From NCBI GenBank assembly GCA_947625435.1, contig CANQOI010000017.1:1-40148 (forward strand): a stretch of 40,148 nt of DNA, written 5' to 3'. Under the pieces are notes generated by a model. It was not told the DNA's origin. It was given only the letters and a program-made list of their open reading frames with translations, and did not search any database. Positions 32,507 through 40,148 of this stretch are shown piece after piece; positions within the stretch are counted from its first letter, which is position 1; each line of letters begins with the position of its first letter. Source of the DNA: an uncultured Clostridia bacterium. Its GTDB lineage: Bacteria > Bacillota > Clostridia > UBA1212 > UBA1255. The translations under genes were made by a program, and so were the position numbers.

Positions 32507-35500
32507 TCATTTTTTGCGCTGTGCCTCTATCGTGATCCCGTAAACAGCGCTGCCTATAAATCTGTAGTCGTCGCTCCACGAGCTGCCGCCCGTCACAAAA
32601 TGCTCCGGACCGTATGCCGATGTTTCCGTAGGCACAAGGTGCAGCGGTCCGAACATATTTCTCCTGGAGCAAACGAGCGTGACTCCTATGTCGCTTTCCT
32701 CTTTGACCCATGATGTTATGTCGGCCTCATACGGATCCCATGCTATTATCTCCCTGCGGCCGCCGCTGCGGCTTGCTCCCAAAGAGTGCACCTCCGCCAA
32801 CGATCCTCTGTACCCGTCTGTTCTGAGTATGACTCTGTCCGCATCTCTGTACTCAGCAAACAGTCCGGCAGGTATCTTATATGTAACACTGCCTGTATAG
32901 AACGGCATATTATATTCAATAAGATCCCTGAACCCTATCCTTCCGGGTCTGCTCACGAGCGTAGAGCGGTGTCCGTCTATGCGCACTCCGAAGTCTCCTA
33001 CGATATATATCGACTCTACGTTCGTTGTCCTTCTGAAAAGAGTGCTGCAATTAACGGTATTGCGCCCCTTGCGTATGACTCCCGCCGGTACGTGAAGCTT
33101 GCTGAAGCATATGTCTATCCAGAAATCCTTCGGATCCGTGCATTTGAGCACCGTTCCGTTCAGAGAGCACTCCCAAAGCTCGGGGCGCTCTATGGCAATG
33201 AATACATCACCTTCGGGAACATCATCTGCGTAGAACTCATATTCAAGCTCGAGCCTGCCGTACTCATTGTTGCAGTGGAGCTTAGAATACCAGGGCTGGA
33301 GCATATTTCCGCCTCTTCTCTCTATGCCGACTCTGTCTCTTATCCTTCCGTCAACGCGGAGCACTTCCTCTTCCATGTTCCATTCTTCATCGCCGAGCTT
33401 CCATTTGGCAAAATCGAGTACGCATACGTTCTTCTCATCAAGCTCATATTCAAATCCGTCCTTATCGGAGACCGGGATCGCTGAAATGCATTCATACGAA
33501 TCGCGCTCTTTGAGCGAAGCATCCTCTTCCTTTGAAAATACGAAAAGCTTTTCGCCGGCGGCTTCAATATCAAACGAAACCGAAACAGTGCCTTCGGAAA
33601 ATTCCGCGGCTTTTCTGTATCTGTTTCCCGTAGACATATCCCATTCTTCCGCGTAAGACACATTTTCGGCCACACCGTCTGTCCTTACAGTAAGACGTAC
33701 GTCCTTCCTCCCTTTACCCCTGTCCGTATTGAGAACGACAGCATACATGAGACCCGCGTCACTGTCATATCTCGTCTGTACGAATATCTCACTGCTTCCG
33801 GCTGCCGCTATGTCGGTCCTGCATGATGTGTTGTTCTTAAGCTCGCGCGCAAGGGCATCCTTGTCAAACGGTATGACGGCCGAGTTCTCATGAGCAGCGA
33901 GCGTCTTTACGTCGGACGACGGCTCGGATCCCACATATCCAGGTATATCTCCGCAGAATATCACCTTTCCTCCCGCGTCCAGGAAGGCGCGTAAAATGTC
34001 GACAGTCGATCTTCTCAATGTGAGCATTCCGCTCACCACTACAGTGTGATAAGAAGCCTTGCCCACATTCAGTACGGCTCTTCCCGAGCTGTCCGTACTC
34101 ACTGCCGACATGCCGCTCATCATGAATTCCTCTCCGTAATCGAAATCTATCTGACTTCCGGCCAGCATATTGAACAGCTTGGAATAATGGTCCTCCAGTG
34201 CCAGCTCATCCGTATTGTCGGGCGCCGGACTTATCCAGCGGGCCCAGTCAAGATATATTCCGGCCCATACCGATTCTATCGGATTCATGACAAGTGTGTC
34301 GCAAAGGGCATTTCCCTGTGACATCACGACTCCGAATCTGGCAAAATATGTTTCAACATGATCATAATATTTATAGTACGGAGACTGATGGAATATGCTG
34401 GCGGGATAATCGCGTTTCGACTCGCCTTCCATCGTATACCACGACAGATGCGGGCACCGAAGGTTTATGCCGAAGAGCGCCTGCCAGTCTCCCACTGCTT
34501 TATGTCCTTTAAAATCAAACTGCCATCCGGAGCAGCCGTACAGCTCCGAGAGCAGCCATTTCTGACCTGTCTGTCTCGCTGCGGATGAGAGCTGCTTCGC
34601 CACCCAATAGCATCTGTTGAATTCGGTCAGGAGATCTATGCCCGGATATGTCATATACGGATAGAAACGCATGAGCGAGCCGTTAGGCACAGTCTGATTT
34701 ATAAGAGCATCCTCGTGTAGCACGTGGCCCGTGAAAATGATATTGTTTTCTTCGCACCATTCCTTGTAAGGTACAGCAAAACGCTCTATAAAGAGATTGT
34801 TTGCCAGATCCACGAAATCTGTCTTTACCTTTGCCACCTTCGCACCGTTTTTCCTGTAATAAAGCTCAGGAAGCATCGCCTTAAGATCATATCCGTATCT
34901 TGATCTGAACTCATCAAATATGTCGTCTGTATAAGCCGCGGACGATATCTCGACTCCGTTTTCGATCCTGTAATCGTCGAGCATGTGCCCTCTGTGGGGT
35001 TCATCGGTGAAGATTCCCTTAATGCTCCTTCCCAGTCTGTCTCCGCAATGCTTTTTATATTCCTCGTGCGTAAGCTCTATAAAACGCTTTGTGGCCTTCA
35101 GACTCATCGTATCTATGTATGTCGTGCCGTTATACACGCTGGCGGGCTTGTCGGGAACTATTTTAAATACGAGCACTTTATTATAGCCGTTATTGCCTGT
35201 CAAGGCAGCCGAAAGCTCATCGGCTGTCCCGCATTCCTCATATCCGGATATGTCTCTTCCGTCGGTATGCGCCGCAAATATGTTTATGATGTCCGCGTCC
35301 TTCGTATCCCTTTCATAGTCAAAGGCATCCTTGTCGTAGGCGTTCAGGACTATGGATTTCATCCTGTACTGTTCATCCACGGTCACCTTTCCGCCTGCAC
35401 TGCCGCTCGGCCATCTGTCCTCGTCGTAAAGCCACGCTTCAAGACCGAGCTTCTCGCCTTCATCGGCGACCGTATTTATAAGATCGAACCACTCTTCTCC

Positions 35501-35689
35501 CAGATATTCTGTTATCAGGCCCGCACGCGAATGCATGAAAAAGCCTCCGAAGCCCATCTCCTTTATTACATGCAGCTGTCTTATAAGCTCCTCTTTTTTT
35601 AATTCTCCGTTCCAGGACCAGAAGGGTTTACCTCTGTATTCCGCACCCGGAGCAGTGAAAAGCTCTATCACATTTTTTCTGTCATTCAT
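32507..35689 (-). CDS. GH106-like glycoside hydrolase
   Basis: 1060-residue protein without a signal peptide, thus cytoplasmic. The N-terminal stretch with FWSWNGELKKEEL, GFGGFFMHSRAG and WLYDEDRWPSGSAGG is typical of large proteins annotated as glycosyl hydrolases related to family 106 (alpha-L-rhamnosidases); the exact family and substrate are inferred. The C-terminal 200 residues look like a galactose-binding beta-sandwich (ELWECSLNGTVL). ATG at 35689 is preferred because AAAGG lies upstream, at a long 12-base spacing; an ATG 13 codons earlier has no ribosome site. A strong promoter precedes it. It would act on imported oligosaccharides. Confidence 0.75.
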   Translation of the reverse strand: MNDRKNVIELFTAPGAEYRGKPFWSWNGELKKEELIRQLHVIKEMGFGGFFMHSRAGLITEYLGEEWFDLINTVADEGEKLGLEAWLYDEDRWPSGSAGGKVTVDEQYRMKSIVLNAYDKDAFDYERDTKDADIINIFAAHTDGRDISGYEECGTADELSAALTGNNGYNKVLVFKIVPDKPASVYNGTTYIDTMSLKATKRFIELTHEEYKKHCGDRLGRSIKGIFTDEPHRGHMLDDYRIENGVEISSAAYTDDIFDEFRSRYGYDLKAMLPELYYRKNGAKVAKVKTDFVDLANNLFIERFAVPYKEWCEENNIIFTGHVLHEDALINQTVPNGSLMRFYPYMTYPGIDLLTEFNRCYWVAKQLSSAARQTGQKWLLSELYGCSGWQFDFKGHKAVGDWQALFGINLRCPHLSWYTMEGESKRDYPASIFHQSPYYKYYDHVETYFARFGVVMSQGNALCDTLVMNPIESVWAGIYLDWARWISPAPDNTDELALEDHYSKLFNMLAGSQIDFDYGEEFMMSGMSAVSTDSSGRAVLNVGKASYHTVVVSGMLTLRRSTVDILRAFLDAGGKVIFCGDIPGYVGSEPSSDVKTLAAHENSAVIPFDKDALARELKNNTSCRTDIAAAGSSEIFVQTRYDSDAGLMYAVVLNTDRGKGRKDVRLTVRTDGVAENVSYAEEWDMSTGNRYRKAAEFSEGTVSVSFDIEAAGEKLFVFSKEEDASLKERDSYECISAIPVSDKDGFEYELDEKNVCVLDFAKWKLGDEEWNMEEEVLRVDGRIRDRVGIERRGGNMLQPWYSKLHCNNEYGRLELEYEFYADDVPEGDVFIAIERPELWECSLNGTVLKCTDPKDFWIDICFSKLHVPAGVIRKGRNTVNCSTLFRRTTNVESIYIVGDFGVRIDGHRSTLVSRPGRIGFRDLIEYNMPFYTGSVTYKIPAGLFAEYRDADRVILRTDGYRGSLAEVHSLGASRSGGRREIIAWDPYEADITSWVKEESDIGVTLVCSRRNMFGPLHLVPTETSAYGPEHFVTGGSSWSDDYRFIGSAVYGITIEAQRKK

Positions 35690-35755
35690 AACACATAACT
35701 GCCTTTCATAATTATTTGATTGATACATATTCGTTTATCAAAAAACGCGGTGGTT

Positions 35756-35784
35756 ATTATACACCTGAAGCCTTATTTCCACAA
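35756..35784 (-). promoter_or_regulatory. Promoter of the glycosidase-addA run
   Basis: Minus strand TTGTGG (-35, 35784-35779), 17-base spacer, perfect TATAAT (-10, 35761-35756). The first base of the -35 is the outermost base of the left 33-bp inverted repeat. The -35 matches only TTG, so an activator may help. Confidence 0.65.
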
Positions 35785-35816
35785 TCGTTTAATTTTCGGC
35801 CTTACGTATATTTTTT
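35784..35816 (+). repeat. Left arm of 33-bp inverted repeat flanking spoVT
   Basis: Reads ATCGTTTAATTT, then TCG, then GCCTTACGTATATTTTTT on the plus strand. The minus strand of 36517-36549 carries the same sequence apart from the central three bases (30 of 33 identical). The outer end abuts the -35 box of the glycosidase promoter. Confidence 0.85.
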
Positions 35817-35825
35817 ATGTACGTC

Positions 35826-35863
35826 CCGCAGCCGAAGCGCGGGCCACCCGTCTTACGGGTGGC
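35826..35863 (-). other. Two abutting GC-rich hairpins after spoVT
   Basis: On the minus strand, 35863-35843 forms a perfect 8-bp stem (GCCACCCG with CGGGTGGC, 5-base loop). Immediately after, 35842-35826 forms a stem with a UUCG tetraloop closed by C-G, GC-UUCG-GC, then CCGC/GCGG with one bulged U. No U-tract follows, so it is not a classical terminator. It starts 11 bases beyond the spoVT stop and ends 10 bases from the left inverted repeat. It could act as a 3' mRNA stabiliser, a weak terminator or a REP-like element. Confidence 0.6.
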
Positions 35864-35873
35864 GGCGACTTCT

Positions 35874-36452
35874 TCACTGTTCGAGCTGTCTGCCTATCAC
35901 GGCGGCAGCCGACTGCGTGAGCTTTGCCTCGGTGTCACCGGGTATATTCTTATTGTCCGGTGAAAACATTATGACGGATCCTACGGGGTCGCCGTGTGAT
36001 ATTATGGGCGTACCTACGTATGACATTATCTTATCGGAAGCTATATCTTCTATTATCGGAAAATAATCGCTTTTTCTGTCTTTTGCTATAAATGTCGAAC
36101 GGTCCTCCATGGCCTGCTCCAGCTGTCTCGTTATGCGCTTTCCGGTGAAATCCTTTTTTGATATCCCGGATACTGCCACGACAGTGTCCCTGTCCGTGAT
36201 ACATGTGGGGTACCCCGCCGTTTTGGAGAGGCTGTCGGCAAATTGAAGGGCGAATTCATTGAGATCGCTCATCACGGAGTATTTGCGTAAAATTATCTCG
36301 CCGTCTTCGCCCGTATATATTTCAACTGGATCTCCTTCTCTGAGTCTGAGCGTCCTGCGCATTTCTTTAGGTATCACAATGCGCCCGAGCTCGTCTATCC
36401 GTCTAACTATTCCCGTCGCTTTGAGCATATTGATATTTTTGGTCTCACTCAT
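35874..36452 (-). CDS. spoVT: SpoVT-type sporulation transcription regulator
   Basis: 192 residues: an N-terminal AbrB-like swapped-hairpin DNA-binding domain (about 10-55, with ATGIVRRIDELGRIVIPKEM and RTLRLREGDPVEIY) and a C-terminal GAF-like domain (about 65-190). In Bacillus SpoVT controls forespore genes late in sporulation under sigma-G. ATG at 36452 is chosen because AAGGAG lies about nine bases upstream and the in-frame upstream ATGs have none. No convincing sigma-A or sigma-G promoter was found; the upstream region holds the right arm of a 33-bp inverted repeat. The gene sits wholly between the two repeat arms. Confidence 0.92.
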   Translation of the reverse strand: MSETKNINMLKATGIVRRIDELGRIVIPKEMRRTLRLREGDPVEIYTGEDGEIILRKYSVMSDLNEFALQFADSLSKTAGYPTCITDRDTVVAVSGISKKDFTGKRITRQLEQAMEDRSTFIAKDRKSDYFPIIEDIASDKIMSYVGTPIISHGDPVGSVIMFSPDNKNIPGDTEAKLTQSAAAVIGRQLEQ

Positions 36453-36516
36453 ATATTTAAACTCCTTCATAAAAGCTGTTACGATCATTTCTCCTTAGTA
36501 TTATTTACCACATATG

Positions 36517-36549
36517 AAAAAATATACGTAAGGCTCCAAATTAAACGAT
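36517..36549 (-). repeat. Right arm of 33-bp inverted repeat flanking spoVT
   Basis: The minus strand reads ATCGTTTAATTT, then GGA, then GCCTTACGTATATTTTTT. It lies 65 bases upstream of the spoVT ATG and faces the left arm. No flanking target-site duplication was seen (tatttccaca outside left, cgcgttaaac outside right). Confidence 0.85.
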
Positions 36550-36562
36550 CGCGTTAAACAGC

Positions 36563-36607
36563 AAAAATGCGGAGTATCGCCGCAGGCGGGCGCTTTCTCC
36601 GCATTTT
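36563..36607 (-). terminator. Rho-independent terminator of the MBOAT-AlgX-like operon
   Basis: An 11-bp stem (AAAATGCGGAG with CTCCGCATTTT) encloses a GC-rich loop that can form an inner CGCC/GGCG pairing, and is followed on the minus strand by a T-run. It stands 37 bases after the stop of the AlgX-like gene. The flanking A and T runs could let it work in both directions. Confidence 0.8.
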
Positions 36608-36643: not shown

Positions 36644-38422
36644 TCATCCCCAAAAACCTATGAGTGAATTTGCTATATTGACATTATCCCCATCGTATCT
36701 TTCGACCGCCAGCAGCAGGAGCACGTCTCCCACAGAGAGCTCCTTGAGAGCATTCTGCACGGCATAATGGTTATTATAGAAATCGCTTCTGTGACATACT
36801 GTGGCTTTTGCAAAATCACGGGCCAGGTACTGCTCCATGGAATGTCTGAAGGAGTCGCCTATGACCACTATCTTGGATCGGTTCGGTGAGTCCGAAGTGA
36901 ACTGTACGAGCTCCACCTCGGAACCTACAGAATTGTCGGGGAAGTACTTAGTATTGACTTTCACGTTCGTTTTATATTCGACCTGATAATCGGTATATGT
37001 TGTCGAATATCCGCAGAAATTCGAAAGATCCCCGCCTGTTCTCTTAGTCTCGTTCACCGTCAGCTCGAGCAGGTTGGTGGTATCCATTCCGAGGGCTCTG
37101 TAGACAGCCATGGTTCCCATAAATCCGCCGATTGAATTCCAGTGAGTATCCTGCTTGTAAAATACATCGTAAAGATATTTGGCCGTATTCAGATCGGAGA
37201 GAGGATACAGATATTTCACGGAGCTGTGCTGCTGCATATAATCGAGGAATACCTCCTGCCTTTTGGGCGTGGACTGTCTCTGATACGAAGGCATATATTC
37301 CGGATAAGCCTGCTCCTTGTTGGGCGCGGCCATCACAACAAGATGGATACCCTTTTTATCGCAGGCTTCCCTGAGCTTTTCAAAGGTGTGCCGCCACGAA
37401 TTCATGGTGCCGTTGTCCAATACATTCGTGCCCTGATAATAACCTATACTGTTGTCGCCCTCGTAGAAGAGCCAGTCGTTTCTCCCGTATATAGCTCCTC
37501 CGGCCGATCTCGGCGCAAGGTACGATGTGGACGTCTTTTTATTTCCCGTGATCTCGAGATTATAATATCCGCACGTACTGCATTTCGAGAGTATGTAGCC
37601 GTAATGCTCCTGATCGGCATTCTGTGTCTTTACCGTCGAATATTTATGGCCTGTCGCCGGTATTTCCTCTGTCTTCGTATCTCCGCATTCCGCGCATGTA
37701 TACACCCTTTCTCCCGCTTCCGTACATGTGGCGTTACGCACAATCCTGCCGGAATCGTATCTGTGCTCATGAGGGGCGGGAGTACGGCCGCCGCCGTCAG
37801 GCGTAGGCGTTGCCGGCTTTGCGGTTACCGTCCCGGTCGCCGGCGCCGTTTCAGAAGAAGTCGAAGGGGCAGGCGTTGCCGGTGCTTCCGCGGAAGGCGT
37901 TTCACCGGGCACAGGTGAAGGCGTACCGATCGGCTCCGGTGTGAGCGTGGGCGTAGGCGTGTTCCCGAACAGGTCGTTAAAATCTGACATATCTATAGTC
38001 GGAAGCTCCTCGTCAGCGTCGTCTCCGGCATTTCCTCCTTCTTCTCCCGACGCATTTTCGGAAGCATCGCCCATGAACAGCTGCGTCAGCTTAGGGTCTA
38101 TATTATTTCTGTAATACGTCTCATATTTCTGTGAAACGGTAGTTTCAAAATATATGAGTGAATTCCTGAAAGGAGAATGATCGCTGTAAAATGATTCAAA
38201 ACGGCTGAACCAGTCGTTCGACATAGTCACTGGGAATTCCGTAAGCTCCCTTTTTTCCGTCAGTCCGCCTTCCTCCTCGGATGCGACGTCATCGCCGAAT
38301 GCAAGCGAAAGTACCCACGGCGATACGGCCACCAGCGCGAACAGTATGATGACAAGTACGGCAAAATGCCTGATATTGCGATCGGCGTTCTCTCTGTTAT
38401 TATTATTTTTATTTTCTTCCAT
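36644..38422 (-). CDS. AlgX/DHHW-like SGNH acetyltransferase with Thr/Pro and Cys-rich insert
   Basis: 592-residue membrane-anchored protein, partner of the MBOAT gene 20 bases upstream. An N-terminal transmembrane helix (about 20-42) leads to the first part of the DHHW fold (EFPVTMSNDWFSRFESFYSDHSPFR). A Thr/Pro-rich linker (about 150-215) and a Cys-rich segment of the HEHRYDSG...TCTEAG...IPATGHKYS type (about 218-290) interrupt it. The catalytic part follows: IYGRNDWLFYEG, DTHWN near residues 424-428 and GDSFRHS near 521, giving a plausible Asp-His-Ser set. AlgX-like proteins accept acetyl groups from an MBOAT partner and O-acetylate extracytoplasmic polysaccharide. GGAGGT precedes the ATG. 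Confidence 0.82.
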   Translation of the reverse strand: MEENKNNNNRENADRNIRHFAVLVIILFALVAVSPWVLSLAFGDDVASEEEGGLTEKRELTEFPVTMSNDWFSRFESFYSDHSPFRNSLIYFETTVSQKYETYYRNNIDPKLTQLFMGDASENASGEEGGNAGDDADEELPTIDMSDFNDLFGNTPTPTLTPEPIGTPSPVPGETPSAEAPATPAPSTSSETAPATGTVTAKPATPTPDGGGRTPAPHEHRYDSGRIVRNATCTEAGERVYTCAECGDTKTEEIPATGHKYSTVKTQNADQEHYGYILSKCSTCGYYNLEITGNKKTSTSYLAPRSAGGAIYGRNDWLFYEGDNSIGYYQGTNVLDNGTMNSWRHTFEKLREACDKKGIHLVVMAAPNKEQAYPEYMPSYQRQSTPKRQEVFLDYMQQHSSVKYLYPLSDLNTAKYLYDVFYKQDTHWNSIGGFMGTMAVYRALGMDTTNLLELTVNETKRTGGDLSNFCGYSTTYTDYQVEYKTNVKVNTKYFPDNSVGSEVELVQFTSDSPNRSKIVVIGDSFRHSMEQYLARDFAKATVCHRSDFYNNHYAVQNALKELSVGDVLLLLAVERYDGDNVNIANSLIGFWG

Positions 38423-38442
38423 TTTACACTGACCTCCGTTCG

Positions 38443-39942
38443 TCAGAAATTGCCGTATATGGACGGGTTATATGAACCGCCCACGAGCATTATGAGGGAC
38501 CATACGAATATCGCGATCTGAGCTATCGTATCGGCGCTCATGAACACGTAGTTGTATTTTACTTTGTCATACAGCTTCATGAGCGGTCTCTGGAGTATAC
38601 CGGTAAGGAGTATTCCGGCTATGAGAGCGACCAGTATCTCCATATCAAGATAGCTGAGTACAGTCAGGCCTGCGCTCGAAGCCTTGAATGAGAACAGCTG
38701 TCTGAAATACCTGCCGGCCGCGTCAAGATTCGGCGCTCTGAAAAGCACCCATCCCATCATAACAACGAACTGCGTGTATATCCAGTTGACGATCTTGACG
38801 GGATTTTTCTTGAGGAGATTTCCGAGGAACGCTCTTTCTATTATGCTGAACAGAGCGAACAGAAGTCCCCAGAGTATGAATGTCAGATTGGCGCCGTGCC
38901 ATATTCCCGTAAGGAGGAACACCATGAACAGGTTGAAATATATCCTCGATTTTTTGCATCTGCTGCCGCCAAGAGGTATGTATATGTAATCCCTGAACCA
39001 GAAGGAAAGCGACATGTGCCATCTGCGCCAGAATTCCTGTATCGAAAACGATGTATACGGATAATTGAAGTTCTCCGTTATATCGAATCCGAACATGAGT
39101 CCTACGCCTATCGCCATATCGGTGTAACCCGAGAAGTCGTAATATATCTGCAATGTGTAAAGGACAAGTCCCAGCCACGCGATACCCGATCCCATGGCGT
39201 CAAGGTTCTCGATCGCCCATATACGGTCCACCTCACGGGCCACGATGTTCGCTATAAGTACCTTCTTTCCGAGGCCGTAACAGAAGCGCTTTATACCGTG
39301 CATGAAACGCTCGGCCGAATGGGTCCTGTTCGTTATCTGCGGGCCCAGATCGCCGTAGCGCATTATGGGTCCCTGCGTGAGCTGTGCGAAGAATGACATG
39401 TAAAGTGCAAAATGCGCGGGATTCTTACACGGCTTTACTTTTCTCGTATATACATCTGCTATGTACGATATTGACTGGAATGTTATGAACGATATGGCAA
39501 GAGGCATGGCGATCGCCTTTATACCCAGTGCGCCGGTGCACTCGAATTTAAGGAGAGAGCTGAATATCCCGCCTATCTTTTCCCCCGAAGTCAGTATCTC
39601 GATAAGGGTGACCATCATGTTGAAATATTTGAATACGACGAGCAGCAGCACATTTATGAAAACGGCGCACACTAGCACTATCTTGCGCGCGCCCTCTTCA
39701 AATCCGGTCTCCAGCTTCTCCATGAATATTCCGGCAAGGTAATTCACCGCCATCATCCCTATGAAAAGGAGCAGCTGATAAAGTCCTCCCCACGCGTAAA
39801 ATACGATGCTGAGCACGAGCAGCAATATGTTCCGCGCATTCGATCTCACATTTTCTTTGCGGATAAAGCCGAAAATGTAATAAATGATCAAAGATACGGG
39901 TAAAAAAATCTCAATAAAAAATACCCCTTTTGCAAACTCCAT
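38443..39942 (-). CDS. MBOAT-family O-acyltransferase (AlgI/DltB-like)
   Basis: 499-residue polytopic membrane protein with about ten hydrophobic helices. The MBOAT core is clear: YPYTSFSIQEFWRRWHMSLS, FRDYIYIPLGG and LTGIWHGANLTFILWG, whose His is the catalytic residue. YDFSGYTDMAIGVGLMFGF is also typical of AlgI. These proteins pass acetyl groups across the membrane to AlgX/DHHW-type partners, here the next gene. The polysaccharide acceptor is unknown (cell-wall polymer or exopolysaccharide). GGAGGG lies six bases before the ATG and a strong promoter upstream. Confidence 0.92.
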   Translation of the reverse strand: MEFAKGVFFIEIFLPVSLIIYYIFGFIRKENVRSNARNILLLVLSIVFYAWGGLYQLLLFIGMMAVNYLAGIFMEKLETGFEEGARKIVLVCAVFINVLLLVVFKYFNMMVTLIEILTSGEKIGGIFSSLLKFECTGALGIKAIAMPLAISFITFQSISYIADVYTRKVKPCKNPAHFALYMSFFAQLTQGPIMRYGDLGPQITNRTHSAERFMHGIKRFCYGLGKKVLIANIVAREVDRIWAIENLDAMGSGIAWLGLVLYTLQIYYDFSGYTDMAIGVGLMFGFDITENFNYPYTSFSIQEFWRRWHMSLSFWFRDYIYIPLGGSRCKKSRIYFNLFMVFLLTGIWHGANLTFILWGLLFALFSIIERAFLGNLLKKNPVKIVNWIYTQFVVMMGWVLFRAPNLDAAGRYFRQLFSFKASSAGLTVLSYLDMEILVALIAGILLTGILQRPLMKLYDKVKYNYVFMSADTIAQIAIFVWSLIMLVGGSYNPSIYGNF

Positions 39943-40003
39943 TTAATTCCCTCCGTATGTAACCGCTGTAATACTGCCAAAGTCTTAAACATCATGTGAA
40001 TGT

Positions 40004-40032
40004 ATTGTAAAATACAAGAGCACAAATGTCAA
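40004..40032 (-). promoter_or_regulatory. Strong sigma-A promoter of the MBOAT operon
   Basis: Minus strand perfect TTGACA (-35, 40032-40027), 17-base spacer, TACAAT (-10, 40009-40004). The best match in the window; leader about 55 nt to the MBOAT ATG. Confidence 0.85.
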
Positions 40033-40107
40033 TTGTTATATATCTCATATGCGTGAGAGACGTGCGTCTGAAGTTACTGTTCAGAGGTATCTAAACGAAA
40101 CATAAGT

Positions 40108-40142
40108 GATTCATCACCAACTTAAATAGTGATGCGTGAATC
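40108..40142. repeat. Imperfect inverted repeat upstream of the MBOAT promoter
   Basis: GATTCATCAC (40108-40117) faces GTGA (40129-40132) and TGAATC (40137-40142), with an unpaired TGCG on one side. The stretch 40033-40148 holds nothing else recognisable. It may be a terminator stem of an outside gene or a regulator site. Confidence 0.3.
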
Positions 40143-40148
40143 CGTAAG

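Follow-up and report, generated by a model that had tools for sequence, protein, structure and literature searches.

Inverted repeats flanking spoVT in a Clostridia genome: probable scar of a micro-inversion with inverted duplication of a promoter region

The genome of an uncultured Clostridia bacterium contains the gene spoVT enclosed by two inverted 33-nt repeats. This arrangement raises a simple question: are the repeats the working ends of a switch or of a mobile element, are they binding sites for a regulator, or are they the trace of a past rearrangement? The original prediction, made from the letters of the same window (the whole 40,148-nt stretch of DNA analysed here), had considered the first three. 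The genes and repeats referred to below are as follows.

32507 to 35728, minus strand: gene for a GH106-like glycoside hydrolase, which here follows spoVT in the same direction but is oppositely directed to it in relatives
35784 to 35816, plus strand: left arm, probably the copy of a former divergent inter-promoter region that was retained beside the GH106-like gene
35817 to 35873, minus strand: hairpins downstream of spoVT, GC-rich and with no T run (z = -3.07 for the hairpin region)
35874 to 36452, minus strand: spoVT, inverted relative to same-genus relatives; the longest open reading frame begins at 36488
36517 to 36549, minus strand: right arm, probably the copy that moved with spoVT; the predicted -35 (GTATA) of the spoVT forespore promoter lies at its inner end
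36568 to 36584, minus strand: intrinsic terminator-like site of the AlgX-like gene, found by terminator scan just right of the right arm

The repeats themselves are directly observed. Each arm is 33 nt long, the two are complementary at 30 of 33 positions (91%), and 700 nt lie between them. Among the inverted pairs of the 40-kb window this one ranks first by a wide margin: its score is 24, whereas 200 dinucleotide shuffles gave no score above 16, which confirms the inverted arms that had been predicted. A whole-genome BLAST search with the arm gave E = 1.1e-5. The three differences, described earlier as clustered in the centre, are indeed adjacent (TCG versus GGA; p = 0.006 under random placement); contiguous mismatches are improbable as independent changes and suggest one small event. 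The arms had also been said not to recur in the window, and this extends to the whole genome (2.03 Mb in 86 contigs, a fragmented assembly that is 98% complete): no further copy was found with up to 3 mismatches allowed, and an exact-pattern search was likewise empty. An assembly artefact is an unlikely source of the flip, because the longest exact run common to both arms is at most 18 bp, below usual assembly k-mers.

The enclosed gene matches the Pfam families SpoVT_C (E = 4e-41) and MazE_antitoxin (E = 2.5e-14); this match and the hairpin score agree with the predicted content of the segment, a single spoVT gene plus hairpins. The start of spoVT is likely the ATG at 36452 (MSETKN...) rather than 36488, because of the alignment with a same-genus relative, G003. 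The terminator scan found no intrinsic terminator between spoVT and the GH106-like gene. Beyond the GH106-like gene, to the left, lies addA; to the right of spoVT, AlgX-like and MBOAT genes occupy positions 36644-40148 and reach the contig end. Since it has no full-length counterpart across four same-genus genomes, the AlgX-like gene looks like a lineage-specific gain.

The orientation of spoVT was compared in these four further genomes of the genus (G001-G004). In G002 and G003, addA and the GH106-like gene point left and spoVT points right; G003 has an extra carbohydrate esterase gene between GH106 and spoVT, in the GH106 direction. GH106 and spoVT are oppositely directed in G004 too, with a 5'-nucleotidase-like gene between them, and G001 has the same order of nucleotidase, spoVT and lipoprotein genes as G004, GH106 being absent from its short contig. 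The window alone, among the relatives compared, has addA, GH106 and spoVT all pointing left. Because the orientation of spoVT relative to GH106 is opposite in three same-genus genomes, spoVT is, by parsimony, inverted in the window's lineage. Among 80 further GH106-like loci, spoVT lay within the examined flanks only in two already known relatives.

The repeats differ between the genomes as well: no arm-like sequence was found in the eight relatives searched, and in all four same-genus genomes spoVT lacks comparable flanking repeats. The DNA downstream of spoVT has no homology to that of the relatives. The right neighbour (the AlgX and MBOAT genes) has no counterpart in them; the ABC transporter gene that lies downstream of spoVT in the relatives is found here on contig C13, beside other genes, and their downstream lipoprotein gene was not found in this genome. 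The right breakpoint may therefore be part of a larger rearrangement.

Each arm touches a predicted promoter, read by eye.

35756 to 35784, minus strand: promoter of the GH106-like gene, predicted sigma-A type, TTGTGG-N17-TATAAT
36499 to 36527, minus strand: promoter of spoVT, predicted sigma-G/sigma-F type, GTATA-N17-AATAATA, from the class-wide layout and the sequence

Across the class, spoVT leaders carry GTATA, followed after about 17 bp by an ATAATA or ATACTA element, which is the layout of forespore sigma-G/sigma-F promoters. The predicted spoVT promoter of the window has its -35 within the right arm, in keeping with the earlier placement of this arm in the spoVT leader, and its -10 beyond the arm, within the flipped segment. 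Sigma-G and sigma-F both control spoVT in Clostridioides difficile, where the gene is required for mature spores (PMC3789822). At the other end, the left arm had been said to touch the -35 box of the next operon, and it does overlap the predicted GH106 -35 by one base, at the arm's outer end. A generic promoter scan did not list this promoter; at the corresponding place G002 and G003 have TTGCAA-N17-TAAGAT and TTGCAA-N17-TAATAT, respectively. The left arm also contains an orphan GTATATTTTTT, which repeats the spoVT -35 region but has no -10. Upon re-inversion of the segment in silico, the sequence becomes GTATATTTTTT...GTGGTAAATAATAC, whose spoVT side matches GTATATTTTTTTCGCAGTGGTAAATAATAC of G003, and the distance from the divergent -35 hexamer to GTATA is 21 bp both in the re-inverted window and in G003.

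We therefore read the arms, with a probability of about 0.7, as the scar left when a micro-inversion of ~0.7 kb, specific to this lineage, turned spoVT around, accompanied by an inverted duplication of the DDAI type. In the ancestral state, spoVT and the GH106-like gene (or its operon) would have been divergently transcribed with -35 elements ~21 bp apart, the orientation being that of the relatives and the distance that read in G003. During the inversion, a staggered break or a template switch would have duplicated the inter-promoter region in inverted orientation: one copy would have been kept next to the GH106 promoter, and the other would have moved with spoVT, leaving its forespore promoter whole. 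The retention of both promoters is probably the reason why the change was tolerated. The geometry supports this reading: the arms bound the flipped unit, with the left outer end at the GH106 -35 and the right inner end carrying the spoVT -35. Compared with close relatives, the segment lies the other way round, and it has inverted copies at both ends, the left end being anchored by a neighbour common to the relatives. The relatives carry no second copy, and the single copy is recognisable in them by promoter elements only; we infer an ancestral single copy from position only, because the intergenic DNA between and beyond the promoter elements is too diverged for significant alignment (flank homology of the window to G002 and G003 outside the arms is not significant on either side). 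As spoVT now reads towards GH106 and addA with no clear terminator between, some forespore read-through would be expected, and these genes may be partly co-transcribed with spoVT in the forespore.

The same final geometry would result from a two-step origin, in which an inverted inter-promoter copy was first placed downstream of spoVT and recombination between the copies then flipped the gene once. This route needs two events, and 18 bp of exact identity is little for homologous recombination to act on, so that we regard it as unlikely.

We give equally little credence to an active inverton, in which a recombinase would occasionally flip the spoVT segment and so alter the context of spoVT or the read-through into GH106 and addA. 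The 33-bp arms are within the range of inverton repeats, 10-40 nt (PMC11892184), the segment is inverted relative to the relatives, and the genome encodes 6 tyrosine and 4 serine recombinase domains. However, these domains lie only on other contigs, with none in the neighbourhood of the window, and the arms are missing from the relatives and occur at a single locus; neither a cognate recombinase nearby nor sites elsewhere were found. A genome-wide search for arm copies and recombinases, proposed with the original prediction as a check, thus came out empty for the former and positive, on other contigs, for the latter. The arms have no evident dyad inside them, and their three-base centre, taken earlier for a crossover core, is a mismatch that would hinder rather than help site-specific exchange. 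Nor would the inversion separate promoter from gene: the two arms have identical -35 elements and the -10 is part of the flipped segment, so that spoVT should be expressed either way round. With the promoter intact after a flip, a mismatched centre and arms absent in relatives, a live switch is unlikely. What survives of the predicted invertible segment is a historical inversion relative to three same-genus relatives; the phase switch is not supported, since the promoter travels with the gene. A live switch of a narrower kind, tied to sporulation and placing GH106 and addA under spoVT forespore read-through in one orientation only, is very unlikely.

It is slightly less probable still that the arms are paired sites for a regulator, such as SpoVT, that controls both promoters, the inversion being unrelated. 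The contact of each arm with a predicted promoter would suit such sites, but there are just two copies genome-wide, and across the spoVT leaders of the class the arm is conserved in its promoter -35 part only, so that the predicted SpoVT sites are not supported. Many relatives do share a dyad, but it falls outside the arm region. It is of the type ATTACAAAT...ATTTGTAAT, surrounds the spoVT -10 and start (leaders L005, L006, L007, L009 and L015) and is absent from the spoVT leaders of the window and G003; where present, it is likely an operator, on which SpoVT itself may act.

That the arms are terminal repeats of a small mobile element with spoVT as its cargo is extremely improbable: inverted repeats do enclose one gene, but there is a single copy rather than several, the flanks show no target duplication (as had been noted from the start), and spoVT is 89-91% identical to its nearest relative and still beside GH106, so that the mobile cassette of the original prediction is not supported.

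Other arrangements were observed around spoVT elsewhere. In G056, which belongs to another family, the inverted pair around spoVT is a different one (L023:1018-1069 and 2346-2397), with 26 nt at 2 mismatches and 52 nt at 73%, in which each arm is an outward sigma-A-like promoter; promoter duplication around spoVT may thus have occurred here too. In G028 (L012, about 1330-1500, upstream of spoVT), the promoter and leader of spoVT occur twice in tandem, and a reading frame beginning MKAAWC comes after the first copy.

Read as the scar of a micro-inversion, the locus illustrates, on a small scale that is easy to follow, how a head-to-head gene pair could be broken up undamaged, the copied promoter region leaving each gene its own promoter. 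Clean inverted repeats around a gene need not indicate a switch, and the orientation of the gene in relatives helps to tell scars from switches.

Among known systems, the closest comparison is with the DDAI inversions of bacteria, described in 2011 and outlined in passages of PMC8963470 and PMC4671568. As far as these passages describe them, the likeness is an inverted segment flanked by inverted copies of DNA that was previously single, or, in the present case, probably so; here, however, a single gene of 0.6 kb makes up the unit, only 33 bp of promoter DNA would have been copied, and the ancestral copy and right breakpoint are deduced. Invertons and other phase-variable inverted repeats (PMC11892184) resemble the locus in repeat size and in having an inverted unit, whereas here one orientation is known, there is no dedicated recombinase and the promoter is not switched. 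In the staggered-break inversions of Drosophila (PMC3355041), the duplications are kilobases long and in a eukaryote, compared with 33 bp in a bacterium here, but formerly single-copy DNA lies inverted at the two ends of the segment, as is proposed for the present locus.
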